Counted from the first letter of the stretch, positions 27,343 to 42,212 are shown. The stretch is DNA of 64,000 nucleotides from Candidatus Schekmanbacteria bacterium (GCA_016188575.1 JACPHN010000092.1:12676-76675); one strand, 5' to 3'. Notes: generated by a model not told the origin, from the letters alone. Numbers and translations: made by a program.

Positions 27343-30300
27343 ATGGCTTTCAGCACGTACGATCAGGAACTGGACGCGTTTGCGGATCAACGGTCGCCCG
27401 TGCCGGGTCTGCCGTACCATAGTGCGCATCGCCGGGCCACTCTCCCGGTCGCGATCGATGGATACCGGATAACGCGCGAGCTTGGCCGGGGCGGCGCCTG
27501 TGTGGTGTATTTGGTGAAGGATGATGTGGGCAATCCGTTCGCCTTGAAGATCCCGTACCCGGCGGCGAAGAAGCCTCGCACGATTGGCCGGCTCCTCGAA
27601 CGTGAAGTGAGGCTCCAGCAAGCGCTGGATCATCCCGGCATCGCGAAAATCGTGCTCGTGGGCGCGGTTGGCGAGCTCCCGTACCTGCTGCTCGAATACG
27701 CGGATGGTGGCGACCTGGCGCACCTGTGGGAGCATCGCAAGGCGATGCGCACGACGGGGGAACGGATCATCGAGGCGCTGAAGCTGCTCGACCAGGTCGC
27801 GGGCGCGATCGCATACGCCCACGAGCACGGCGTCCTCCACCGCGACATCAAGGCGCGAAACATCCTGGTAGTGGGCGGCGAGCTCAAGGTGAGCGACTTC
27901 GGTCTTGCGGTGGCGATGGCTGGAGACGAGGTGATGCACTCACGCACGGCGACGCGAGACAGGATGGGCACGCTCGGGTACATGGCGCCGGAGCTGGAGA
28001 TCAGCGCCAAGAACGCGACGGTGGCATCGGACGTGTATGCGCTGGGGGCGATGGTGTACTGGATGGTGACAGATGTGGTGCCATGGGCGGACGACCCGGA
28101 CTGGTCGCACCGCCCGCTGCTGAGCACGCTGCTGGGTGAGCACGCGGAGTCGCGCGTGCACGCAGTGGTCGAGGAGACTTTCCTGGGGTGGATCGCGGAG
28201 AAACCCCAACGTCGACCGGCCAGCGTGGCGGTCATGCGGGAGCAGATCGCGACGCTGTTGCGTCTCGGGACAGCGGGTGTGCTGCGGAGCAACTCGGCGT
28301 CGGCGTCGATGCTGGCGGAACCGGTCGCGACGCCGGAAATGCCGATCGTCGCGGCCAGGTCCGAACGCCAGGTCCAGGTGAGAACAGACCCGCGGGTGAT
28401 CCTGGTGCCGGAGCTCGTGGCACACCGTGGTCGGATCGGGCCGGTAGCGGTGGAATCGTTCATTGGGCAGGGCGGCTTCGGGCAAGTGTTCCGCGGACAG
28501 TGGCAGGGCCAGCAAGTTGCGGTCAAGCTCGTGCCCGAGACCGACGACCGCGCCGCCGCACGGTTCCGTGACGAGATGCGCACGCTGTCGAGCTTCCAGC
28601 ACCCCAACATCGTCCGCATGCTCGACGTCGTCCACGACCCCGACCTCGGCGCCGTCGGACTCGTCATGGAGTATCTGCCGCACACCCTCACGGATTGGTT
28701 ACAAAACGCCTCCGCTTCGTTCGACGAGCGCGTTGAAATGGTCTGTCGGATCGCCAGTGGCCTGGACTATCTTCATTCCGCGGGCATGTTTCACTTCGAT
28801 CTGAAGCCGGACAACATCCTCGTGCGAGAGGACGGGAGTCCGGCCATTGCCGACTTTGGTCTTGCCGCACGAGCCAGGGATGCTGCGCGGCATGGTGGAA
28901 CCGTTACTTACATGGCGCCTGAGATGCTGGCACGGGTGCGGTCTGACTTGGCCGAGCGTTATCCGGACTTGGCCACGGCGCCGCTCGATGAACGCGCGGA
29001 TCTGTTCGGGCTCGGCGCGATCGCCTTTGAGATCTTCACAGGGCGCACGCCCTTCGTCGCCGACGATTGGGCGATGCGCTTCGCGTGGCGCGCGGATCTG
29101 GAAGCCGCCATCGGTGTACCGTTCGATGTGCAGCCCACGATTTTCCGCCTCTTGTCCTCCCAGCCGAGCGCACGACCGCGCAGTGCCGTCGAGGTCGTGG
29201 CGGCCTTGCGACCTGATGAACCGTATCCGACCCAGGCCGAAGCCCTGCGTCGGTGTCATCGCCCACCGCGCACCGACACGGCGGATGCTTGGCTGCGCAC
29301 GCTTGCTTCCGATGTCGCGACGACCGTCGCGCCCGCGACCGTGCTGTTGCAGGGGCCGCGTTGGAGCGGCCGAACCCGGCTCTTGAGTGACCTTGTCGAC
29401 CTGCTGCGCCTGGAACATGGCCTGTCCGCGGTTTGGGTTGACAGCGACATCGAGGGCGCGTCGATTCTCGCCGTCGATGATTTCGATTGCCTGGAGCCAG
29501 CGCGGCTCGATGCCCTGGCGAGCCATCGCGGCGTGTTGCTGGGGGCGATAGCACATGATCCGGACGTCTCGCGTCTTGAGACCCACGGGAGCACCGTGCG
29601 CATCATACCGTTGCCCGCGTTCGACACGCGTGATGCCGCAGGCTTGCTCAGCGCGCTCTTGGGGCGAGTCGAGATGCTGGAGCAAACCGCCGCGCATCTC
29701 GTACGCGAGTCGGGAAGCCGCCCCGGCCTGTTCATGAGCCTACTACGTGGACTGATAAAAATCGGCGCCGTGACGCTGACGCCTACACCGTCCTGGAACG
29801 TCGATCTTGACCGTCTCGATGAAGCGACCGCGCGCCAGGCTAGCATGGTCGAGGCGCATCGGCAGTTGTTGGCAAATGTCGATGCCGACGGGCTGCGTTT
29901 GTTGGGCTACCTGGCCTGCGCAAACGCGTCCATTGCGGTTGGTGTGCTGGCCAGGCTGCTTGCAAGGTCCGAGGGCGAGGTGCGCGAGCTCGCCAGGCAA
30001 CAGCAGGCATGGGTGTCGGAGCCTCAGCATGGTGCGCTGGCACTTTACAATGGTTTTGTCCGGCTCCTGCTTCGACAGACGGCGCCAGCCGGGGTCTCGA
30101 TGCGGGCGTTTGCGATGGAAATCGAGCCCACGAACCCGCACGAGGCCTGGCGGATCTGGCTTCGCGATACGGACGACCTGGCGCGAACGCAGGCGGGACG
30201 ACTCGGGGCGCTTCTGGTCCAAGACGATTGGAACGTCCCCGAGCTGTCACCCTATGCCACGCGAGATCTCGTGGAGCGCATGGAGGCCAACGCCTTGTGG

Positions 30301-31749
30301 TTGAGCAACCGCGATCGCGCCCTGGGCCTCGTGCAACTTGCCTGTGCCGTGCGCCGCATCGTGGGCATGAAAGCGCGCGGCGTGGCGACCATGTTGGCGC
30401 CGGCAGTGGAAATCGCAGCCGGGCTCGGTGATCCTGAGCTCGAAGCTGCGGTGATGGCCGCTCGGGCTCTGTGCGAGGAAGAAACGCCGGCAGCGGAGCG
30501 GATCGCCTGTGCGTTGCGCTGTCAGCAGCTCGCGGAGACATGCGGCCAAGCGAACCTGCGTTTTCTTGGCCAGCTTGCTGAAGGCAAGGTGCGTTGTTAC
30601 CACACGGCCGATGCGGATGCGGCGGAAGCGGCATTCCAGGCGCGCTGGCTGGCGTTTGGGGAGGTGTGGAGGCTGCCGCCGGGCATTCTGTACGAGCTCT
30701 TTGTCTTTGCTTCCCGTCACGTGCTTGCCGGTGCGATCCTCGTGCACGTACAGCAGTGCTGTGCCAACCAGGCGGCAAGCGCTTCACGGCCATATCTGAG
30801 ACTTGCGCTTCTCGAGCTCGAAGCTGCCGTTGCTCGTGCGCGCTTGCAGTTTGCCCCAGCGAGCGAGAAATACGCGCTCATTTCGGCAGAGTCCCTGCGG
30901 CTGCGCATGATGGCCGCGTGGCCGATCGCATCCAACGCTGCCTCTGGCATGGCGGCGTTTACAGGAAACATGAGCACGGCCCTGCGACATGCCAATGCGG
31001 TGATGCGCAGCGGCATCGACCTGGGACGGCGGCGGGCATCCCACTTGATGCAGCTCGCTGAATTTCACCGGCTTTGTGGACGGTATTCCCAGGCGCTCGC
31101 TTTTGTGAACGCGGCCGTGGCGGCTGCGGACCCCCGTTTCCGAGCCAACCACCTGGCGGTGCGGTGTTTGCTGCTCACCGATCTTGGCATGGATACTCGC
31201 GAGGAGCTCGCGGACGTGCTCGCGCAAGCGCAGACCGAGGATAACCGTTGCCTGGTCCGTTTCGCACTGGCCCGCGCGTGGTTGGCCCAAGGGCAAACCA
31301 GGGAAGCCGATGAGTGGGGACGGCAGTGCGTTGAAAGCAAGGTGGGTCCTGGTTCCGATTTACGGCATACAGCTCACACGGTAGCGGCGCGCGCGGCAGC
31401 GCGGTGTTACCTCGAAACAGCGGATGGCCTACACCGGCGGCGCGCGCTCGCGTACTTGAACGAAGTGCCCCGCGATTGCCATCGCTGGACGCCGGTTCGC
31501 TTGCTCGTTGAAGCGCGCGTCGCCGACACCTCAGCCGAAAGCACTGCATTCGCGAGAGAAGCCCTCGATGTTGCCTTGCGCACGGGGATGTACGCCTTCG
31601 CCCTCGAAGCTATCGCTCTGTTGCAGGAAAGTGCGACAGCATGCGAATATGACGGCTTGGTCGATCGCTTATTGCAATTGTGTTTAGAAGGTCTCAGTGA
31701 TACAATGAAGCAAAGTTTCATGAACCACTGGAGAAACTTATGCGTTTGA
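27343..31749 (+). CDS. Tandem-kinase signalling ATPase: Ser/Thr kinase, second kinase, NTPase module, helical repeats
   Basis: 1468 residues; ATG with GAGGGG six bases upstream. Kinase domain 1 (about 40-300) is intact: Gly loop ELGRGGACVV, Lys 69, HRDIKARN (166-173), DFG (185-187). Kinase domain 2 (about 366-620) has Lys 395 and DFG (504-506), but the catalytic loop reads HFDLKPDN (484-491), Arg of HRD being Phe. Next comes a P-loop-like segment GPRWSGRT (671-678; Arg in place of the usual Lys) and a Walker B-like ILAVDDFD, then about 700 residues of alpha-helical, TPR-like repeats. There is no membrane helix, so it is cytoplasmic. PknK/STAND-type proteins share kinase-NTPase-TPR order; a second kinase is unusual. 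It overlaps the next gene by 10 bases. Confidence 0.9.
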   Translation: MAFSTYDQELDAFADQRSPVPGLPYHSAHRRATLPVAIDGYRITRELGRGGACVVYLVKDDVGNPFALKIPYPAAKKPRTIGRLLEREVRLQQALDHPGIAKIVLVGAVGELPYLLLEYADGGDLAHLWEHRKAMRTTGERIIEALKLLDQVAGAIAYAHEHGVLHRDIKARNILVVGGELKVSDFGLAVAMAGDEVMHSRTATRDRMGTLGYMAPELEISAKNATVASDVYALGAMVYWMVTDVVPWADDPDWSHRPLLSTLLGEHAESRVHAVVEETFLGWIAEKPQRRPASVAVMREQIATLLRLGTAGVLRSNSASASMLAEPVATPEMPIVAARSERQVQVRTDPRVILVPELVAHRGRIGPVAVESFIGQGGFGQVFRGQWQGQQVAVKLVPETDDRAAARFRDEMRTLSSFQHPNIVRMLDVVHDPDLGAVGLVMEYLPHTLTDWLQNASASFDERVEMVCRIASGLDYLHSAGMFHFDLKPDNILVREDGSPAIADFGLAARARDAARHGGTVTYMAPEMLARVRSDLAERYPDLATAPLDERADLFGLGAIAFEIFTGRTPFVADDWAMRFAWRADLEAAIGVPFDVQPTIFRLLSSQPSARPRSAVEVVAALRPDEPYPTQAEALRRCHRPPRTDTADAWLRTLASDVATTVAPATVLLQGPRWSGRTRLLSDLVDLLRLEHGLSAVWVDSDIEGASILAVDDFDCLEPARLDALASHRGVLLGAIAHDPDVSRLETHGSTVRIIPLPAFDTRDAAGLLSALLGRVEMLEQTAAHLVRESGSRPGLFMSLLRGLIKIGAVTLTPTPSWNVDLDRLDEATARQASMVEAHRQLLANVDADGLRLLGYLACANASIAVGVLARLLARSEGEVRELARQQQAWVSEPQHGALALYNGFVRLLLRQTAPAGVSMRAFAMEIEPTNPHEAWRIWLRDTDDLARTQAGRLGALLVQDDWNVPELSPYATRDLVERMEANALWLSNRDRALGLVQLACAVRRIVGMKARGVATMLAPAVEIAAGLGDPELEAAVMAARALCEEETPAAERIACALRCQQLAETCGQANLRFLGQLAEGKVRCYHTADADAAEAAFQARWLAFGEVWRLPPGILYELFVFASRHVLAGAILVHVQQCCANQAASASRPYLRLALLELEAAVARARLQFAPASEKYALISAESLRLRMMAAWPIASNAASGMAAFTGNMSTALRHANAVMRSGIDLGRRRASHLMQLAEFHRLCGRYSQALAFVNAAVAAADPRFRANHLAVRCLLLTDLGMDTREELADVLAQAQTEDNRCLVRFALARAWLAQGQTREADEWGRQCVESKVGPGSDLRHTAHTVAARAAARCYLETADGLHRRRALAYLNEVPRDCHRWTPVRLLVEARVADTSAESTAFAREALDVALRTGMYAFALEAIALLQESATACEYDGLVDRLLQLCLEGLSDTMKQSFMNHWRNLCV

Positions 31750-33140
31750 AGTGGACCATTCTATACGCGCTCGTGCTGTTGTCCGCCGGCAGAGCCAATG
31801 CCACCGGCTCGGTGACCGCCGAGGCCGATCAACTTCTCGGTATTGCTCAGTTGCGCGCCGAAACCGGTCTGACCGGCAAAGGCGTAAAGGTGGCGGTCAT
31901 TGGTCCAGGCATCACGGATTGGCAAGAACGCGTTGCGAGCGGCGATCTTCCATCGGATCTTTGGCTGATCGATGACTACGCGGGAACGGATTACCGAACG
32001 CTTGGCGTCATCGAGACCATTCACGACCTGGCGCCGGAGGCCACGTTGATGTTCGGTGCTCTGGTAAATGCACTCGGGGCGGTTCCCCAAGCTCTGGCTG
32101 CGGGCGCCGACATCATTGTTGCGACGGATGATGTGCCATTCTTGTCCGTTTTCGAGGACGAACCGCGTAACAAAGCATTTCAGGACGCTGCGCAGGGAGG
32201 CACTTTGGTGATCGCGCCGGCGGGGAACTTCGGCGTTGGCCACTACCGGGGCACGTTCAAGGATGCTGGCGACAATCATCACGACTTCGGAAGTGGAGTA
32301 ACACGCATTCCGATCACAGTGCCGGCGCTGCGCGAGCCCGTCATTAACCTTAACTGGGCTGAAGACGTTTACACCAACGCGTTCAGCAATTACGTCTTAC
32401 GCGTCTATACAGCTACTGGCGAGTGGATTGGGGATTACGGAGGTGCCGGGGCTTTTGCCAGCGTAGCTGTTCAGTATGCCGATCAAACTAACGATTACGG
32501 CTTGCTGCTGAGTGTCTGGCGAGAGCCTGGTGCGCCGGACTTGCCATTTGATTTGTTTGTCCAAGGCTGGCCGTGGCCAGTTTCAGCAGATCCACCGCAA
32601 CTGGATGCGTTGTACCAAGTCGCACGCGGTTCAATTGCTGGCATTGGTGCGTTGCCGGAGGTGTTTACCGTAGGCGCTCTCGATCAAACAAAGGTTATCG
32701 ATGTACCCAACAATATATATGCCATACGGGATTATTCGAGCCATGGACCTGCCGAAGTGTTATTGGCGTCACCTGTGAATCGACAGAAACCAGATCTCAT
32801 GGCTCCTGACTGCCAAACGGGTTACGGCGGAACGCCTTGGTGCGGCGCTGCGATTAGCGCAGGTGTCGTTGGTGGCGTCGCAGCGCTTCTCCAGCAAAAG
32901 TACCATTTCGAGCGCACGATCGACATGAAGCAGCAGCTCACGAGTACCGCAGACGATCTCGGCGCGACGGGATACGACTACGAAACGGGGTACGGGCAAA
33001 TTAATCCAAGAGCTGCGCTCACGGATCCGCTGGTACCAGTTCGGCCAGTTGCTTTATTTGTTCTTCTGGTATTATTCGTCGTACTATTTCCTCACGTTAA
33101 ACCCAAATTTTTCGTATCTGATATCAAGCAGCTCATTTGA
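31740..33140 (+). CDS. Catalytically dead subtilisin-fold protein with C-terminal membrane anchor
   Basis: 466 residues with a signal peptide (WTILYALVLLSAGRANA) and a C-terminal hydrophobic segment (about 436-450). The S8 scaffold is clear: KGVKVAVI (47-54), HDLAPEA (95-101), APAGNFG with the oxyanion Asn 163, PDLMAPD (351-357), GGVAALLQQ (378-386) and the closing GYGQINPRAAL. All three triad residues are replaced: Asp by Gly 55 (VAVIGPG), His by Arg 86 (nine residues before HDLAP), and Ser by Ala 371 (GAAISAG in place of GTSxAAP). It is therefore probably a binding or receptor protein on the cell surface. The start overlaps the tandem-kinase gene; the base composition is visibly more AT-rich. 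Confidence 0.85.
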   Translation: MRLKWTILYALVLLSAGRANATGSVTAEADQLLGIAQLRAETGLTGKGVKVAVIGPGITDWQERVASGDLPSDLWLIDDYAGTDYRTLGVIETIHDLAPEATLMFGALVNALGAVPQALAAGADIIVATDDVPFLSVFEDEPRNKAFQDAAQGGTLVIAPAGNFGVGHYRGTFKDAGDNHHDFGSGVTRIPITVPALREPVINLNWAEDVYTNAFSNYVLRVYTATGEWIGDYGGAGAFASVAVQYADQTNDYGLLLSVWREPGAPDLPFDLFVQGWPWPVSADPPQLDALYQVARGSIAGIGALPEVFTVGALDQTKVIDVPNNIYAIRDYSSHGPAEVLLASPVNRQKPDLMAPDCQTGYGGTPWCGAAISAGVVGGVAALLQQKYHFERTIDMKQQLTSTADDLGATGYDYETGYGQINPRAALTDPLVPVRPVALFVLLVLFVVLFPHVKPKFFVSDIKQLI

Positions 33141-34055
33141 TATCAGGGTGACGCGCTGTTGGATATTAAGGTCAGTACCAATACATGCCGCTGTTATTGG
33201 ATTGCCATACTGGTCCAGTTTAGGACAATCGGGATATGGGTCGTTTTCCCATTCCGTGCATGACCGTACAGTCCACCCGGCGACAGATTTACCCGTTGTT
33301 TGCCATGTAAACGTGAGTTGGTCCCACAGCTTTGGATTCACAGGATCGATGTGGAAAACGTGGTAGTTGGCGTGAAGCTGCCCGCATTGCGTTTGCGTTT
33401 CATCGCTGCACATTTGGTCCGGATTGTCGTACGGTCCTTCAAATGGTAACTTTACCGTATAGCCGCTCGATCCAAGAAAATTCTCGAAGCCGAACGGTGT
33501 CGTCACGTTTGGATATTCCGGGCTGCTGAAGCTAGAAGCCCTGTACGCGAGCATGCGATATCGTGCATTCGAAATCCCAGGCCTCAGGACCACGTCGATT
33601 GTAAGAGAAGATTGGCTAGCACGCCGCACCGCGAACCCTAGTTTTGCGGCGTACGTGTGGTTGAAAACCCACTTGATTCCGTCCCAAGCATCGCACGAAT
33701 GATCTGCTGTAACTTTCCCCGCGATCACAAAGTAAGGCTTTGTGCTACTATACTGCGTACCTGTTAGCTTTACATACCCGAAGTTGTCCGTAGTATAGGC
33801 TCCCTTGTAGGACGCGTGATCGTACACGAGCACTGGGCAGCCGACGCAGGCTTGGCTTCCATCCACCACCCGAACAGTTGCGATCGAGGAAACGGCCATC
33901 GTGGAAACGTCGGTCGTCCGGCTGGCCTGGGTGGCCATGTTCTGTTCGACCTTGGTCCGCCGAGCCAAATGCTCCCACTTCCCAGGCACCAACGCGTCTG
34001 CCTGTCCCGCTGTCCATGCCATGAACAGCGCTACCATTGCCGCCAACTTCTTCAC
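33084..34055 (-). CDS. Secreted protein with Ig-like (carboxypeptidase-regulatory-like) domain, unknown function
   Basis: A GTG at 34055 with GGAGG seven bases upstream gives 323 residues with a signal peptide (VKKLAAMVALFMAWTAGQADA). Residues about 58-105 (SIATVRVVDGSQACVGCPVLVYD then TTDNFGYVKLTG) look like a carboxypeptidase regulatory-like beta sandwich with a CVGC pair. The rest is beta-rich, with paired cysteines and a His-containing segment (HANYHVFHIDP); I recognise no enzyme family. The start overlaps the upstream gene (GTGA). Its last 57 bases overlap the 3' end of the dead subtilase gene on the other strand. AT content is higher than in the surrounding DNA. Confidence 0.7.
   Translation of the reverse strand: MKKLAAMVALFMAWTAGQADALVPGKWEHLARRTKVEQNMATQASRTTDVSTMAVSSIATVRVVDGSQACVGCPVLVYDHASYKGAYTTDNFGYVKLTGTQYSSTKPYFVIAGKVTADHSCDAWDGIKWVFNHTYAAKLGFAVRRASQSSLTIDVVLRPGISNARYRMLAYRASSFSSPEYPNVTTPFGFENFLGSSGYTVKLPFEGPYDNPDQMCSDETQTQCGQLHANYHVFHIDPVNPKLWDQLTFTWQTTGKSVAGWTVRSCTEWENDPYPDCPKLDQYGNPITAACIGTDLNIQQRVTLISNELLDIRYEKFGFNVRK
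33118..33146. terminator. Perfect inverted repeat at the convergent overlap
   Basis: CTGATATCAA and TTGATATCAG are perfect 10-base arms around a nine-base loop. The element covers the stop codon of the dead subtilase gene and lies within the last codons of the opposing gene. It is AT-rich and lacks a T-run; it could act as a bidirectional terminator or a protein-binding palindrome. Confidence 0.4.
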
Positions 34056-35168: not shown

Positions 35169-38100
35169 CTATTCCTGGCGCTTCCGGACCCGCTTCAGCC
35201 CTGCTCCAAGACCGGCCAACAGCATCAACAGGCCGGCGCCGCCGCTGACGGGGACCCGCGTCGCACCGCCTGCCGCCACGACGATGCGGCTCTCTCCCTG
35301 CGCTTGCTCATTCCATGCGGCGTACACCGTGCCGACCGTGTCGATGGCCATGTCCGGCAGCAGGTTGGCGGCCTCCGCCCTCCTGCTTACCCGGCTGCTC
35401 GAGCCAAAGCTCTGCCCGGCGTCGAGGCTGACCGCTGCGTCTATCGCCACCTGACCTTCACCCGACACGCTGCTCCAGGCCACATAAATGTGCCCGTTGC
35501 GACCCGCCAGCGAGGGGTGTCCGGTGCCCGTGGTGCCCTGCCCGAGCGTCAGCCGCGGCCAAAAGCTCGCGCCGCCATCGGTGCTGCGCCGGTAATTCAC
35601 ACCAGTCGAGCCGGCGCCGGCCGCGGCTGCCCAGGCGACATGCACCTGGCCGAGGCGATCGACGAGGACCGCAGGAGCCGTCGTGTCGACCGCCCAATCC
35701 GCCGCGAATGTGTCCGTCTCCTCGCTGATCCGGACGTTCGCCTCGAAGCTCAGGCCGAAATCGCGGCTGACAGCGGCGTGCACGTCTCCCCCACCGAATC
35801 GCTCATCTTGCCAGGCGACGAAGATGGCGCCGTCCGGAGCGACGTCGATCGCCGGGAACTTCTGCCGCACGCCGCCGATCCCGTCGTCGTTGAGACGCAC
35901 GTTCGCCTCAAAGCTGCTGCCACCGTCGCGGCTACGGGCGAAGTAGATATCGGGGTCCCCGTAACGGTAGTCGTGCCAGGCGACCAGTGGCCATCCGGAC
36001 GGGCTCACCACCACTGCCGGAGATGCCTGCCAGACGGCGGCCGTCCCCGTGTCGTCGACGCGCGTGGAATCGTCGAAAGCGACCGCCCCCGGCACGAGGC
36101 GGGCGGCGTAGATGTCCGGATTGCCGGATCGCTGGTCTTGCCAGACGACGTGCACGGTCCCGTCGGGAGACACGGCGATATCCGGTTGGAGCTGATCTTC
36201 GCCACTGCCGGCAGCGTCGTCGACGGGGATTCCGGCGGCGAAGGTCAGGCCGTGATCCAGACTGCGGGCGTAGTAGACGCGCGCGGGGGCGGCTCGCCGG
36301 TCCTCCCAGACGATGTGCACAATGCCGTCGCCGCCGACCGCGACGGCGGACCGGTTCGGAGCGTCTCCAAGCCCCGCCTCCCCGGTCACCTCGGTGGCAT
36401 CGCCGAATCCCGCATCGCCGCCGCTCTGGCCATCCGATGCGATGTGGATCTGCGCCGTCTCGATCACGCCCAGGTCCCAGCCGACGAGATCGCAAACGTG
36501 CAGCAACCAGATGCCGCTCGCGGGCTCGTCATTGAAGTCGTCCAGGCCACCCGGGCCGCTCGGTACGAGCGTCAAATCGAAATTCCCGGCGACGTCGCCG
36601 CCGTCTTGCCAACTGAGATCCCACAGGCGCACGGTGGTCTGGCGGGGCGAGATGAGATCGACGGTCAGATCGGAAGTGAAGGGGTGGCGGATGACGACGT
36701 CGAGATTGAGGTCGGTCACCCGACCGCTGGCGTCGACCGGCAGCGCACAGTAGGCGCCGTTCGCTGACCCATCGGGGATCTCCACCGCAGCTTCGCCGCA
36801 GATCGGCATGTCGGCGGCCACGCTGAAATGAACGGCAGGGCTCGCCTCCCCGGTTCCACATCCATTGATCGCGAAAACTCTGAAGTAGTAGGAGCCTGCT
36901 TCCAGCGAGTCGACGGTCAGATCGGGGTTGGCGACCTCATGATCGCGCACGATTTGCTGGAATCCGGAATCTCCGGCGATCTGCAGTCGATATGAGGTGG
37001 CATTGCTGACGCTGTACCAGGCGAAAAACGCGGGCACGGGTAAGAGGATGGCACCATCTTGGGGATCGTAGGGTGTGGGGGTTTCGGTGATCGGCGCGCT
37101 GACAACCACGGGAATCGTGCCGTCGATGGCGAAATTTCCCGCGACCGTCTTGATGCCGGCGCTGTAGGCGCCTGGTTCGGCACCATCATCGATGGTAAGC
37201 GGCAGATCCGCCGTCCCGGGGACGCTGACAGTAACGGGTCCCTGGCCGCCGCCGGTGACGACTCCGCTGCCGGGCCGCAGCGCGACCGTGGCGTTCCCGG
37301 AATAGCCGTTGAGCGTGGATACGACCACGTGGGCCACGGACGATTCTCCAGGGCATGCGGCGACCTCGGCCTGCGCGACCGCCTTGACCGCGGGCCGGGT
37401 GGTGCCGGTCAACGTGAGCTCGAGCTCGTCGATGACGCCATCATCCGCGGCTTCCGTGTCGAGCGCCGAAAACCACCACAGGCCGCGGGAGCTCTGGCCA
37501 ATGAAATCGTCCATCTCTCCAGGTCCGTCAACCGCCAACGTGTCGTCAAAGCTGCCCACCATCGCAGTCGACGTGTGGTTGTGCAGAATCACGGCATCCT
37601 GGTCCGGATCGGGTGCGGCGAGCGAGAGCTCGAGGTCGGAGGGCCAGTCATGCTCGATTGCCACGGCGAGCTCGACGTCCGTGACCGCGTAGTCGGCCTC
37701 GACCTCGAAGGAGCACGTGGCAGGGCCGCCCGGTGTGTCCGGAATCGCCAGGGGCAGCACGGGACAAGCGATGACCGTCCGGGCGGCCGTCTCGAAGGGT
37801 TGCGCGTCCGAGCTTTCCCCGTCGCCACAGGAGTTACGGCCACCAACGCGCCAGTAGTAGATCTTCTCGCCGTCGAGGGCGGGCAGGCGTAGCGAGGTCG
37901 CCGCGGTGAGCTCGTCCAGGACGATGTCCGAGAGCTCGGCGTCCCGGGCAAGCTGGACGCGGTACAGATCCGCGGATTCGAGCGCGCTCCAGAAGAGCTC
38001 GCTTCTCGGAGGAACGGCGATCTGTCCGGCAAACGGGACCAGCAAGGAGGTTCCGGCCAGTTTTTCGTCGACGCGCACCGACACCGAGACGAAGCGCTGA

Positions 38101-40796
38101 AGCTCACCCGAAGTCCCGCGGATCGTCAGCTCGTGGGGCCCGACCGGCGCACCAGCGGCAATGCTCAGGGCCATCACGGTGTTCGCCGGCGGCGATACCG
38201 CGGCCGCGAGATCTACGGTCATAAAGGATGGGAGATCGACGACTTCCAGCGCCACGGTCTCGTCGAATCCACTGATTTGGCCCACCGTCAGCGCGAACGC
38301 GAGCTCGCCGGAGCCGCAGATGAGCCGCTGGTCATCGTCGGCCGCAAGGTAGAAACCGGGTGCCTGGCTGACATTATAAGCGACCAGCGCAAAGTCTTGA
38401 TCGGTGGCGTCGGCGTTTTGCGGGACGCCGTCGCCGGCGATGGCGGCCGCGACGACGCGAATCCGCACGCCGCCCATGACGCCGGCGGGGAGGTAGACGG
38501 CCTCGAAGTTGTTCGCGCGATCGCTGTCGCCGCCGGGGGAGCTCCAGGGCCCCGCAAAGTGGTTGCCGCGGTAGAGCTCACCATCGACGAAGACCTCGAG
38601 ATCGAGATCGTTCACTTGCGGGTCGGCATAGGCGGCCCCCGGCGCGTCCGTCCAGGTCAGCACAATGCGGGTCGGGCGATCGTTCTCGGCGGTCCCACCG
38701 AAGACCTCCCAGGAGCCGCCGGTCTCCCCGAGCGTGACGCTCTGGTCGACGACGATGCGCGCGGCTTCGTCGAAGGCGGCACCGAGGTCGGGTAGCCCGA
38801 GGCCCTGGTTGTTGCTCGGGAGGTCATCGGTGGCGTCGACACCGGAAATCGACCGCGTGTGCGCCAGCAAGTAGGCCTTGACCGCCGCCGGGCTCGGGTC
38901 GGCACCTCCCGTGTGGTGCGTGCGCAGCCAGTAGTGCAGCAGCGAGGATGCGCCGGCAACCGCCGGCGTCGAGTGACTGGTGCCGGAGGACAGGGCGAGC
39001 TCGGATTGACCCGCGGGAAAGTAGGCGTCACACACGGAGTACCCGGTATAGGCGGGAGCGGTGCTGGCAGTGCCCTGGATGTGCGTGCCCGGCGCAACGA
39101 TTTCGGGCTTCACCCGGTCGCCACCGGCCGGGCCACGGCTGGAGAAGTGGATGATGTCCTGCAGATTATCCGCCCCCTCGGTGCCGACACCGCAGCCGTC
39201 GACAAAGCCGGGTCGCGGATTTTCGGAGGCGCCCACGGAGATGACGTTTTTCGCCGTCGCGGGGCTGCCGACGGTCGCCGGCCCTGGACCCGAGTTTCCC
39301 GCGGCGAAGACAAACAACATCTGCTGATTGCCGGCGGAATCCGGCAAGGCGTCGCGTGCCCCTGCATCATACGCCTGGGCAATGGCGTCGTACTCGCCAT
39401 AGGCATCGGCGCCCCAGCTATTGGAGCTGATGCGCGCGCCGTTGGCGTAGACCGCAGCGATCAACGCGGCATCACTGCCGTCGCCACAGCTCCCGGTATT
39501 CCAGGAGCCCAAGTCGCCGAAAACTCGGGTCCCAGCAAGCCGGGTGAAGGGGTTCACGCCGAGAGCGCGCGCAAAGCCGTTGTCGTCCTGAAAGGGGGCC
39601 CCACTGCGCTCGTCGTAGCCGCCCACGATGCTCGCGTTGATGTGACCGTGGCCATCGAGCCCGTGCGGCCCGTCTCCCGTGCAGTCCCCGAGATAGGCAA
39701 CGCGCGTCGCCCATGCGGCGTTTCCGCCTTCGTGCAGCGTCGGATCACCGGTGTCGAGCGTGCCGTCGCCGATACCATCGTCGACCACGTCCACGATCGG
39801 GTAGTCGGCAGGATTCGCGCTCACGCCGTGATCGCGCAACCAGTCGAGGTAGCCGGGGCCGGCGGGCGATGCCGCGCCGGCAGTGAAGTTGCCGGCCACG
39901 ACCTGGTCCTGAATTTCGTCCAGCCTGCGCCGCGGCGCGGCCCGGTCGACCCAGACGACATCGGGAACGGCGAGCAGCTCGGTCAGGCTGGAGGCCGCGA
40001 GGCGAATCGTCGCATTCTCGTACTGTTGGACTCGCCACCAGCGCTGCAGATAGGTCGCGCCGGCGCGACGCAGCAGGCGCGAGAGCACCCCGCGGTCGCT
40101 GCCCGCGTAACGCTGGACGTTCAGCGTCAGCGCGGCGCCAGCGCCGGACTTTTCGCGCGCCTCGCCCACCAAGGCCGCGGCCGCCTTGTAGAACGGGTGG
40201 TATGCGCCCACGTATTGCAGCGGCGAGCGGTCCTGGTGAAAAAGGTCGACGAGCTTCGCGAGCGCACCAGGTGGTGCCCAGACGAGGTAGCCGTTGGCCG
40301 GAAAGGGTTGGATGAGAGCAATGCCGCAATCGCGCAGTGCCTGGAGCCAGCGGTCTTGCGGGGGGCCGACGAGCTGCACGAGATAAAGTCCCGCGGTCGC
40401 GGTGTGGGGCGCGGTGAGGGCGGGCGGAATGGGCGGAAAGGAGCTCGTGGGAGCCGTTTCGAGGGTCGCCGCGTGCAGGTGCAGGACATCGAGCTCGCCG
40501 GGCGCTGAGAGCCGAGGCGCGCGGCTCGGGTCGGCTGCCGCGGCGGCGGTCTCGATCAGGTCGAAGGCGCCGTAGTGGGCAAGCACGGCGAAATCGGCCG
40601 TGTCGGAGGCGTTGGAGAGCGCGGGAACAAGCGCCCGCTCGCCGTGCGCGGGCCGGCGCAGGCCCGCTGTCGGCAGCTCCGGATTCGCGGCCGCGGCCGC
40701 CAGATCGGCAACCGCGAGCGCCAATATCCCCGCCATGGTCATGACGCGCGGTGCAACCGCGCGACGTCGAGGTATCTGTCCAGAATGGGTAGACAT
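35169..40796 (-). CDS. Giant cell-surface subtilisin-family protease with P-domains and BNR propeller
   Basis: About 1875 residues. AAGGAG lies upstream of two adjacent ATGs; the one at 40796 has the better spacing. A signal peptide (VMTMAGILALAVADLAAAAA) leads into a propeptide ending PDVVWVDR, then an S8 domain (about 300-690) with intact Asp 340 (VDVVDDG), His 384 (DGHGH, lacking the usual THVAG), oxyanion Asn 502 and Ser 608 (SSGTSHSTPAVAG). Then come Ig/fn3-like domains, two proprotein-convertase P-like domains (each with VEIPD/LAIPD and a GxW(L/W)(L/F) core), and a sialidase-type BNR propeller with repeated HVVWQDQRSGNPDIYAAR phrases. A C-terminal hydrophobic helix plus KRVRKRQE resembles a sorting tail. 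It probably acts on extracellular protein. Confidence 0.92.
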   Translation of the reverse strand: MSTHSGQIPRRRAVAPRVMTMAGILALAVADLAAAAANPELPTAGLRRPAHGERALVPALSNASDTADFAVLAHYGAFDLIETAAAAADPSRAPRLSAPGELDVLHLHAATLETAPTSSFPPIPPALTAPHTATAGLYLVQLVGPPQDRWLQALRDCGIALIQPFPANGYLVWAPPGALAKLVDLFHQDRSPLQYVGAYHPFYKAAAALVGEAREKSGAGAALTLNVQRYAGSDRGVLSRLLRRAGATYLQRWWRVQQYENATIRLAASSLTELLAVPDVVWVDRAAPRRRLDEIQDQVVAGNFTAGAASPAGPGYLDWLRDHGVSANPADYPIVDVVDDGIGDGTLDTGDPTLHEGGNAAWATRVAYLGDCTGDGPHGLDGHGHINASIVGGYDERSGAPFQDDNGFARALGVNPFTRLAGTRVFGDLGSWNTGSCGDGSDAALIAAVYANGARISSNSWGADAYGEYDAIAQAYDAGARDALPDSAGNQQMLFVFAAGNSGPGPATVGSPATAKNVISVGASENPRPGFVDGCGVGTEGADNLQDIIHFSSRGPAGGDRVKPEIVAPGTHIQGTASTAPAYTGYSVCDAYFPAGQSELALSSGTSHSTPAVAGASSLLHYWLRTHHTGGADPSPAAVKAYLLAHTRSISGVDATDDLPSNNQGLGLPDLGAAFDEAARIVVDQSVTLGETGGSWEVFGGTAENDRPTRIVLTWTDAPGAAYADPQVNDLDLEVFVDGELYRGNHFAGPWSSPGGDSDRANNFEAVYLPAGVMGGVRIRVVAAAIAGDGVPQNADATDQDFALVAYNVSQAPGFYLAADDDQRLICGSGELAFALTVGQISGFDETVALEVVDLPSFMTVDLAAAVSPPANTVMALSIAAGAPVGPHELTIRGTSGELQRFVSVSVRVDEKLAGTSLLVPFAGQIAVPPRSELFWSALESADLYRVQLARDAELSDIVLDELTAATSLRLPALDGEKIYYWRVGGRNSCGDGESSDAQPFETAARTVIACPVLPLAIPDTPGGPATCSFEVEADYAVTDVELAVAIEHDWPSDLELSLAAPDPDQDAVILHNHTSTAMVGSFDDTLAVDGPGEMDDFIGQSSRGLWWFSALDTEAADDGVIDELELTLTGTTRPAVKAVAQAEVAACPGESSVAHVVVSTLNGYSGNATVALRPGSGVVTGGGQGPVTVSVPGTADLPLTIDDGAEPGAYSAGIKTVAGNFAIDGTIPVVVSAPITETPTPYDPQDGAILLPVPAFFAWYSVSNATSYRLQIAGDSGFQQIVRDHEVANPDLTVDSLEAGSYYFRVFAINGCGTGEASPAVHFSVAADMPICGEAAVEIPDGSANGAYCALPVDASGRVTDLNLDVVIRHPFTSDLTVDLISPRQTTVRLWDLSWQDGGDVAGNFDLTLVPSGPGGLDDFNDEPASGIWLLHVCDLVGWDLGVIETAQIHIASDGQSGGDAGFGDATEVTGEAGLGDAPNRSAVAVGGDGIVHIVWEDRRAAPARVYYARSLDHGLTFAAGIPVDDAAGSGEDQLQPDIAVSPDGTVHVVWQDQRSGNPDIYAARLVPGAVAFDDSTRVDDTGTAAVWQASPAVVVSPSGWPLVAWHDYRYGDPDIYFARSRDGGSSFEANVRLNDDGIGGVRQKFPAIDVAPDGAIFVAWQDERFGGGDVHAAVSRDFGLSFEANVRISEETDTFAADWAVDTTAPAVLVDRLGQVHVAWAAAAGAGSTGVNYRRSTDGGASFWPRLTLGQGTTGTGHPSLAGRNGHIYVAWSSVSGEGQVAIDAAVSLDAGQSFGSSSRVSRRAEAANLLPDMAIDTVGTVYAAWNEQAQGESRIVVAAGGATRVPVSGGAGLLMLLAGLGAGLKRVRKRQE

Positions 40797-40988
40797 CATG
40801 GTGACTCCTTTTGTACCGAGCCGCGCACCCCTTATCCGGCGCGGTTGCCATCACCATGGCAAGAACCGCGCCAGGCAAGAGACCTTCAATCGACGGCAAA
40901 GAAGTGCTCCACGAAGCGATCGAAAGGCAACGCGAGGCGACCGGCGTCACCCTCGCGAGTGGCGGGCACGCCGGTCACGTGTGGGCAT

Positions 40989-41411: not shown

Positions 41412-41676
41412 TACGGCATTGAATGCCGCCGAAGCAGGAGACTATAGCAAGGCCGAGCAGCTCTGCCAGCGCCCCCTGCGCGAGCACCCCGAAGCTCTGG
41501 ATGGTCACGAACGTCTGGCGATGCTGCGCGAAGCCCAAGGCCGTTACGATGAGGCCGCGGCGGCATACGCGGCCGCCCTGGAAACCGTCCGCACCCACCC
41601 CGACGACTACGATCGCAACACCAAATGGCTCCTGGAAACCAGCCGCAAGCAGGCGTTGGCCATGGCGAAACGATAG
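41377..41676 (+). CDS. Small TPR-like protein
   Basis: 99 residues from GTG 41377 (or a later TTG at 41419). Two helical hairpins fit the TPR pattern: AAEAGDYSKAEQLCQRPLR with HPEALDGHERLAMLREAQ, and GRYDEAAAAYAAALE. There is no signal peptide. It overlaps the minus-strand ORF at its start. It could be the remnant of a longer protein. The 41677-41873 gap after it holds nothing I can identify. Confidence 0.5.
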   Translation: MWFSSPVDKLSNTALNAAEAGDYSKAEQLCQRPLREHPEALDGHERLAMLREAQGRYDEAAAAYAAALETVRTHPDDYDRNTKWLLETSRKQALAMAKR

Positions 41677-41873
41677 CCTCGGGGCACAACACCTACCCTA
41701 CGCCGGGCCCGCCCGGCGCGGAACGTGAGCACCCAAGCGCTGCTCGGCACCATTCAGAGTGGGCAGGGACACGATGGGAATGCTCTCCAAGGTCTCCCCT
41801 GCCATCTCGGCATGCCACGTGCCTCACCGTTCGCGAAAAACATCCGGGCCAGCTCATCCCGTGGAGGTGCTCG

Positions 41874-42212
41874 ATGCCCGCCGAAGTCCCGAAGCTTCAC
41901 CATGAAAATCTCGATTGCTACCAGACCGCCCTCTCGCTGCTGGCTCTCGCCACCCGCCTCCTGAAGGACTTGCCACGGAGACAGGGCGAGCTCGGTGACC
42001 AGCTTCGCCGGGCAACCATCTCAATCCCGCCGGGCATCGCAGAAGGCCACGCCAAGCGGAGTCCCCGCGATCGATCGCGTTCGTACGACAGCGCACGAGG
42101 GTCGGCTACCGAATCCGGGGCAATCCTCGATGCGGCCAGGATCCTCGGAGCTCTTGATGAGGAAAGGTACGCCGAAGGCAAGACAATGCTGCACAGACTC
42201 GTTTGCTGGTGA
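41874..42212 (+). CDS. Four-helix bundle protein (23S rRNA intervening-sequence/S23 type)
   Basis: 112 residues; the ATG at 41874 has GGAGG seven bases upstream. The family pattern is clear: an early helix (ENLDCYQTALSLLALATRLLKDLP), then the signature DQLRRATISIPPGIAEGHAK (QxRRAxxSIPxNIAEG), the S-x3-R-S/Y-D-S-A-R-G-S helix and a closing AARILGALDEERYAEGK. Relatives are found inside rRNA intervening sequences, but also as free-standing genes in mobile or accessory regions. No rRNA is nearby, so it is of the free-standing kind. Function is unknown. Confidence 0.8.
   Translation: MPAEVPKLHHENLDCYQTALSLLALATRLLKDLPRRQGELGDQLRRATISIPPGIAEGHAKRSPRDRSRSYDSARGSATESGAILDAARILGALDEERYAEGKTMLHRLVCW

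Follow-up and report, generated by a model that had tools for sequence, protein, structure and literature searches.

A 64,000-nucleotide stretch of DNA from Candidatus Schekmanbacteria bacterium (GCA_016188575.1 JACPHN010000092.1:12676-76675; the whole stretch is called the window here) encodes an exported protein that has the fold of the subtilisins (peptidase family S8) but is not an S8 peptidase, all three residues of its catalytic triad having been replaced. This protein, referred to as a pseudo-S8, is one of eight full-length paralogues in the same genome that share the loss of the active site, and each of their genes lies directly behind a gene for a kinase. The reading favored here, with a probability of about 0.55, is that of a pseudoprotease that works by binding at the cell envelope and is co-expressed with a cytosolic kinase, the product of a third, convergent gene (gene X) being its probable partner.

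Fold and active site of the window protein

For the window copy alone the sequence signal of the S8 fold is weak, as the Pfam model PF00082 matches only the C-terminal half of the protein (E 4.8e-6, 26.5 bits, cut-off 21.8). The predicted structure is clear. An AlphaFold2 model built on a 56-sequence alignment has a mean predicted local distance difference test score (pLDDT) of 90 and a predicted template modeling score (pTM) of 0.88, and replaces a run on the eight paralogues alone that gave a pLDDT of 67. It aligns to subtilisin with a VIA-align Z of 32.9 and 2.1 Å over 248 residues. The β-sandwich domain inserted between the oxyanion Asn and the Ser site is related to the C-terminal β-domain of Tk-SP. 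Among solved structures, the best Foldseek matches of the model are CspA and the CspC:CspA pair of Clostridioides difficile (9pr9, 9pr8) and CspB of Clostridium perfringens (E about 1e-17), which carry a β-insertion in their subtilase domain.

The mapping of the triad rests on an alignment anchored by four relatives of the Asp-His-Ser (DHS) type, together with the positions of secondary-structure elements in the model. These four relatives carry Asp at position 55 and His at position 86, and Ser is found at position 371 in all 77 relatives that cover this site. In the window protein the three positions are occupied by Gly55, Arg86 and Ala371. Among the residues that an active S8 protease requires, the equivalents of Asp32, His64 (or Glu) and Ser221 are missing, and the oxyanion Asn155 is present as Asn163. 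Assignment to peptidase family S53 (sedolisins) was rejected, the protein having neither the Glu nor the Ser and carrying Asn, not Asp, at the oxyanion site.

An earlier note, made from the sequence alone, had described a well-kept S8 scaffold with Asn163, which the confident model bears out; Asn163 is exceptional among the protein's own paralogues. The note also named the three triad sites, and alignment and model agree with these positions; residue 86, described there as the His site, probably replaces a Glu, the residue that most relatives have. An intact Asp-His-Ser set elsewhere in the model is not borne out, the substituted positions sitting, in alignment and model, where the triad belongs.

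The paralogue family and its relatives

The source genome, a 9.2-Mb draft of 275 contigs, contains seven further full-length homologues that are 31-43% identical to the window copy (W) and are named by contig: P98, P207, P153, P85, P110, P253, and P224. The Asp site holds Gly or Ala in all eight paralogues, and the Glu/His site holds Arg in W and Leu, Ile, or Val in the others, Glu occurring only in P85, which has lost Ser. At the Ser site, W, P98, P207, P153, P85, P110, P253, and P224 carry Ala, Ser, Ser, Ser, Ala, Trp, Ser, and Ala, respectively, so that Ser is kept in 4/8. Asn at the oxyanion site is confined to W, with Asp in six paralogues and Gly in one. The Pro and His that follow the Ser site in relatives (GTSAAAPH) are gone in 8/8.

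This loss is concentrated around the active site. Among 76 columns conserved in at least 85% of the relatives, the family has lost 15/20 of those that are no more than five residues away from one of the four catalytic positions, vs. 11/56 elsewhere (Fisher p 1.6e-5), and many scaffold positions conserved in the relatives are kept in 8/8. About 60 columns are invariant across the eight proteins, which form one clade with a support of 100 in a tree built with the catalytic columns masked. The ratio of nonsynonymous to synonymous substitution rates (dN/dS; NG86) is 0.13-0.36 in six paralogue pairs, values that are rough because dS is above 1, but well below 1 themselves; the saturated W-P98 pair was left out. 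The eight paralogues are under purifying selection. Because they form one clade with a shared active-site loss and a low dN/dS, the loss of catalysis is ancient and common to the family, and was tolerated while selection maintained the fold. The best explanation is that the whole active site, beyond the triad, was remodeled once in the ancestor of the eight-member family and then kept.

These results bear on two alternatives. The possibility that the window copy is a decayed protease gene with normal close homologues, raised in the earlier note, would fit its GC content at third codon positions (GC3), which is lower than that of its kinase gene (0.58 vs. 0.74). It is refuted by the paralogue family, in which full-length frames, a low dN/dS, the invariant columns and a clade-wide loss of the active site coincide; its nearest homologues have lost the same sites, and the relatives with a full catalytic set are only about 25-34% identical to the window protein. 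Scarcely more credible is the retention, in some or all members, of an unorthodox hydrolase or transpeptidase activity that uses other residues, such as the Ser of P98, P207, P153, and P253 together with Asp at the Asn155 site. The four Ser residues and the six Asp residues, the latter loosely recalling the sedolisin Asp, would speak for such an activity, but the general base is gone except in P85, which has no Ser, in the window copy Ala has taken the place of Ser, and the Pro and His behind this site are lost throughout. The view of the earlier note, of an exported, non-catalytic protein derived from a protease, is supported, and it extends to all eight paralogues, each of them directly behind a kinase gene. 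A ninth copy (L016, G000:C252:1-3890) also stands behind a kinase gene with tetratricopeptide repeats (TPR); its homology ends after GAGVTL, followed by a stop, at the contig end, and it is either a truncated gene or a misassembly.

More distant relatives were collected by an alignment scan of GTDB contigs, which matched at least 429, of which 80 from archaea and many bacterial phyla were kept (L033-L112). Scanning the GTDB contigs with the window protein alone gave no match. There is no close orthologue from outside the source genome among the GTDB matches listed, and a full-length member occurs in 0/7 other genomes of the same phylum; distant members (E ≤ 1e-40) are present in four other genomes in a sample of 386 across the domain. 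In most relatives Ser occupies the Asp32 site, the next residue being Asp (65/80) or Asn (10/80), and the His64 site is occupied by Glu in 75/80 and by His in 4/80, always together with Asp32. The oxyanion Asn155 is present in 80/80. The relatives change as a set, with Asp32/His64 in four sequences and Ser32-Asp33/Glu64 in most, and the Glu-type group resembles the sedolisins in its chemistry.

Judged by these sequences, the window protein probably descends from a Glu-type S8 with an ancestral (S)D/E/S rather than D/H/S set, an ancestry that depends on the root of the tree, here the midpoint. Since the relatives mostly carry Glu at the His64 site, residue 86 is better described as a change from Glu to Arg than from His to Arg. 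The Glu-type relatives (ISDGV ... DEGTAMLEIIHDIAPGA ... GTSAAAPH), which resemble the S53-like S8 group of CDD, are homologous to the window protein along the entire domain, and the homology extends to the inserted β-domain and to the HYxG and HDF motifs. They differ in having the full set of Asp, Glu, Asn, and Ser, and are in many cases larger proteins. Kinase genes flank 3/80 relatives, which is judged to be chance in kinase-rich genomes.

Kinase partner, convergent gene and C-terminal tail

The partner kinase of the window copy carries two kinase domains in tandem, both of which keep their catalytic motifs (HRDIKARN/DFG and HFDLKPDN/DFG). The gene overlap reported earlier is real and amounts to 10 bases, which are shared by the stop of the kinase open reading frame (ORF) and the start of the pseudo-S8 ORF; a plausible ribosome-binding site is present. 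The same arrangement is seen at 8/8 loci, where a kinase/ATPase/TPR gene ends no more than a few codons away from the pseudo-S8 start and usually overlaps it. In 5/8 of the paired kinases the Walker A motif has Arg instead of Lys (GPRWSGRT in W), which suggests a degenerate ATPase module beside intact kinase domains. The genome has 169 kinase matches, many with a kinase-ATPase-TPR layout, and a pseudo-S8 follows 0/20 of the other TPR kinases sampled. One of them (L187, G000:C219) is followed by an exported S8 protein in which the motifs DTG, HGTH, and GTS are intact, which makes it the active counterpart of such a pairing. Pairs of a bacterial kinase with a pseudo-subtilase were not found in the literature searched.

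Two types of 5′ module are present in the paired kinase genes. Type A is shared by W and P98, whose kinase 1 domains are 91% identical, and type B by P153, P207, P253, P224, P110, and C252, with 87-93% identical DNA. The type B module occurs in six places of the genome and nowhere else, namely on five contigs with a full-length pseudo-S8 and on C252, which ends in the truncated one. Several contigs end inside it, as would be expected if the assembly broke at near-identical repeats; of the seven loci other than W, five are on contigs broken within the shared 5′ module. The near-identity ends near the N-lobe of kinase 2, beyond which the TPR half and the pseudo-S8 diverge together (r 0.95 between their identity matrices, exact Mantel 2/40320). 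P98 joins its W-type kinase 1 to a kinase 2, TPR half and pseudo-S8 of P153 type (80, 64, and 63% identical), and therefore the TPR half and the pseudo-S8 move as a unit. The proposed coupling of the pseudo-S8 to the kinase rests on this co-divergence and on the linkage at 8/8 loci.

The product of gene X has no Pfam match. Homologues of X lie at the same place in the P98, P207, and P153 loci and also in P85 (E 3e-19), and P110, P253, and P224 have a convergent exported gene of a second group, whose similarity to the first is weak (hhalign E 7e-4). As a member of one or the other group is convergent at every locus, a cassette of kinase, pseudo-S8, and convergent X is present in 8/8, with marginal homology between the two X groups. 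These groups match the pseudo-S8 subclades (P110/P253/P224 vs. the rest), and X is found only beside the pseudo-S8 family. Such a restriction, with X subfamilies that follow the two pseudo-S8 subfamilies, is what would be seen if the pseudo-S8 were an escort, decoy, or inhibitor of X or of an active S8 (e.g., that encoded at 35169-40799), its target held in the dead cleft and the kinase forming a separate regulatory layer. This alternative is improbable, and an active S8 does not recur as a neighbor in the parts of the other loci that were examined. The S8 protease at 35169-40799 (minus strand, 1876 aa) has apparently intact triad motifs (VVDDG, DGHGH, and GTSHSTP), as well as P-domains and fn3 domains, and ends in a VP/helix/basic tail resembling those of the pseudo-S8 proteins.

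Both terminal segments proposed in the earlier note, a signal peptide and a C-terminal membrane helix, are present, but the helix may not be a permanent anchor. According to sequence and model, there is no room for an I9-type propeptide between the signal peptide and the subtilase domain. Residues 431-449 are strongly hydrophobic (mean hydropathy 2.73). The Val-Pro ahead of the C-terminal helix is kept in 8/8 paralogues; behind it come a hydrophobic segment and, in the majority of the copies, basic residues. Because of this invariant Val-Pro, the similar tail on the adjacent S8 and an exosortase homologue encoded in the genome, the tail may be a sorting signal. The IPTL-CTERM model (PF18203) does not match the pseudo-S8 tails and has one weak match elsewhere in the genome.

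The same three observations are consistent with the main rival of a binding role, which is a good deal less probable. It regards the pseudo-S8 and X as the output of the system, i.e., as diversified surface or matrix proteins with an adhesive or structural fold and a VP-type sorting tail, regulated by a co-transcribed kinase that senses inside the cell. The export of both proteins and a kinase that has no membrane segment are also in line with it. Regulated cargo alone, however, does not explain why the TPR half and the pseudo-S8 diverge and recombine as a unit, and the concentration of the loss in the substrate site is left unexplained.

The features of the cassette are listed in Table 1. Elsewhere, the window encodes a 23S rRNA-intervening-sequence (four-helix) protein (41625-42212, plus strand; PF05635).

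Table 1. Positions of the cassette genes and of the segments and sites of the pseudo-S8 protein, counted from the first letter of the window.
Feature	Position	Strand	Remarks
Tandem protein kinase	27343-31749	+	1468 aa; P-loop ATPase-like region, TPR half; partner gene
Pseudo-subtilisin (S8 fold, triad replaced)	31740-33140	+	466 aa, ATG start
Signal peptide	31740-31805	+	Residues 1-22, ...RANA/TGS; from sequence and model, putative cleavage site
Gly55-Pro56, Asp32 site	31902-31907	+	Gly55 = GGT, 31902-31904; Ser-Asp in most relatives
Arg86, His64 site	31995-31997	+	CGA; Glu in 75/80 relatives, His in 4
Asn163, equivalent of oxyanion Asn155	32226-32228	+	AAC
Inserted β-sandwich domain	32241-32594	+	About residues 168-285, between oxyanion Asn and Ser site; limits approximate
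Ala371, catalytic Ser221 site	32850-32852	+	GCG
C-terminal tail	33033-33137	+	Hydrophobic helix behind an invariant Val-Pro, then a charged end; may anchor the protein in the membrane or be a sorting-type signal
Gene X, exported protein	33084-34055	-	Convergent with pseudo-S8; ORF open as far as 34193, translation probably starting at 34055 (VKKLAAM)

Proposed role and comparison with known systems

The S8 pseudoproteases CspA and CspC contain an inserted jelly roll and are reported to relay germinant signals with no proteolysis involved (PMC12880746; PMC6636752). Because of the analogy with these proteins, the pseudo-S8 most likely serves, at the envelope, to recognize a peptide or protein. 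Its extracellular recognition surface would be made up of what was once the substrate cleft together with the inserted β-domain, as in germinant sensing by CspA/CspC, and the C-terminal Val-Pro, helix, and charged tail would hold the pseudo-S8 at the envelope. The signal would be carried by the co-expressed cytosolic tandem kinase/ATPase/TPR protein, with the exported X as probable extracellular partner (ligand, co-receptor, or regulator). In this scheme we infer the ligand binding, the envelope topology, the coupling to the kinase, whether direct or indirect, with which the earlier note's suggestion of a sensor pair stands or falls, and the role of X.

Several observations weigh against this interpretation. 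The kinase is soluble, a removable sorting tail would take away the direct link from the pseudo-S8 to the kinase, and any cytosolic tail of the pseudo-S8 would be short at most and non-conserved. The co-divergence of TPR half and pseudo-S8 can come from linkage alone. In the assembly, the kinase gene of P110 is apparently split between two frames (L013 7255-11883) and that of P85 apparently has no kinase-2 N-lobe (L012 13056-16308), with the pseudo-S8 genes intact. Finally, the family is known from a single, draft genome.

A further step, put forward tentatively, is that the cassettes make up a diversifying recognition system of eight dead-protease ectodomains, each with its own X and tandem kinase. 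The 5′ half of the kinase gene would be homogenized by recombination, and the TPR half, ectodomain, and X would diversify together in matching combinations, a pattern expected of receptors for the recognition of self and non-self, prey, or symbionts. The cassettes also offer a natural series of matched ectodomain/kinase/X sets in which to study the evolution of specificity and coupling, and a comparison with the Glu-type S8 relatives shows clearly at which positions an active site was dismantled and the fold retained.

According to the literature searched, bacterial subtilisin pseudoproteases with a signaling role are known mainly from CspA/CspC of C. difficile. If the proposed role is true, the pseudo-S8 family would be an independent case from an unrelated phylum, present in eight copies and tied to kinases and to a third exported gene, and would suggest that the subtilisin cleft is reused repeatedly for recognition.

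A layout like that of the protein is found in the mycosins (MycP) of type VII secretion, which also combine a signal peptide, a subtilase domain, and a C-terminal membrane helix. Mycosins have a D/H/S triad. Identity with them was rejected, as TIGR03921 matches 8/8 paralogues weakly (59.3 bits vs. an NCBIfam cut-off of 278.75). The partner kinase shares its Hanks kinase, P-loop ATPase-like, and TPR parts with kinases of the PknK/AfsK/TOMM type, from which it differs in having two kinase domains and, in 5/8, the Lys to Arg change in Walker A; no NCBIfam cut-off is reached.

In fold the window protein comes nearest to CspA/CspC, with which it shares a subtilisin core, a replaced triad, and perhaps the β-insertion. 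The Csp jelly roll sits in what looks like a comparable interval to the insertion of the window protein, which is about 120 residues long between Asn163 and Ala371; over the whole chain the rmsd (root-mean-square deviation) from Csp is about 7 Å. The NCBIfam CspC model does not match the window copy, its best E-value among the eight paralogues being 1.6e-4, and since sequence identity to Csp is only about 15%, the loss of protease function probably took place independently. By contrast with the Csp proteins, the window protein has no prodomain, the subtilase domain directly following a signal peptide, and it ends in a VP/helix tail; Asp, His/Glu, and Ser are all gone, and its pairing is with a kinase and not with an active Csp protease. 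It may function in the manner of the Csp pseudoproteases, but it does not belong to them.

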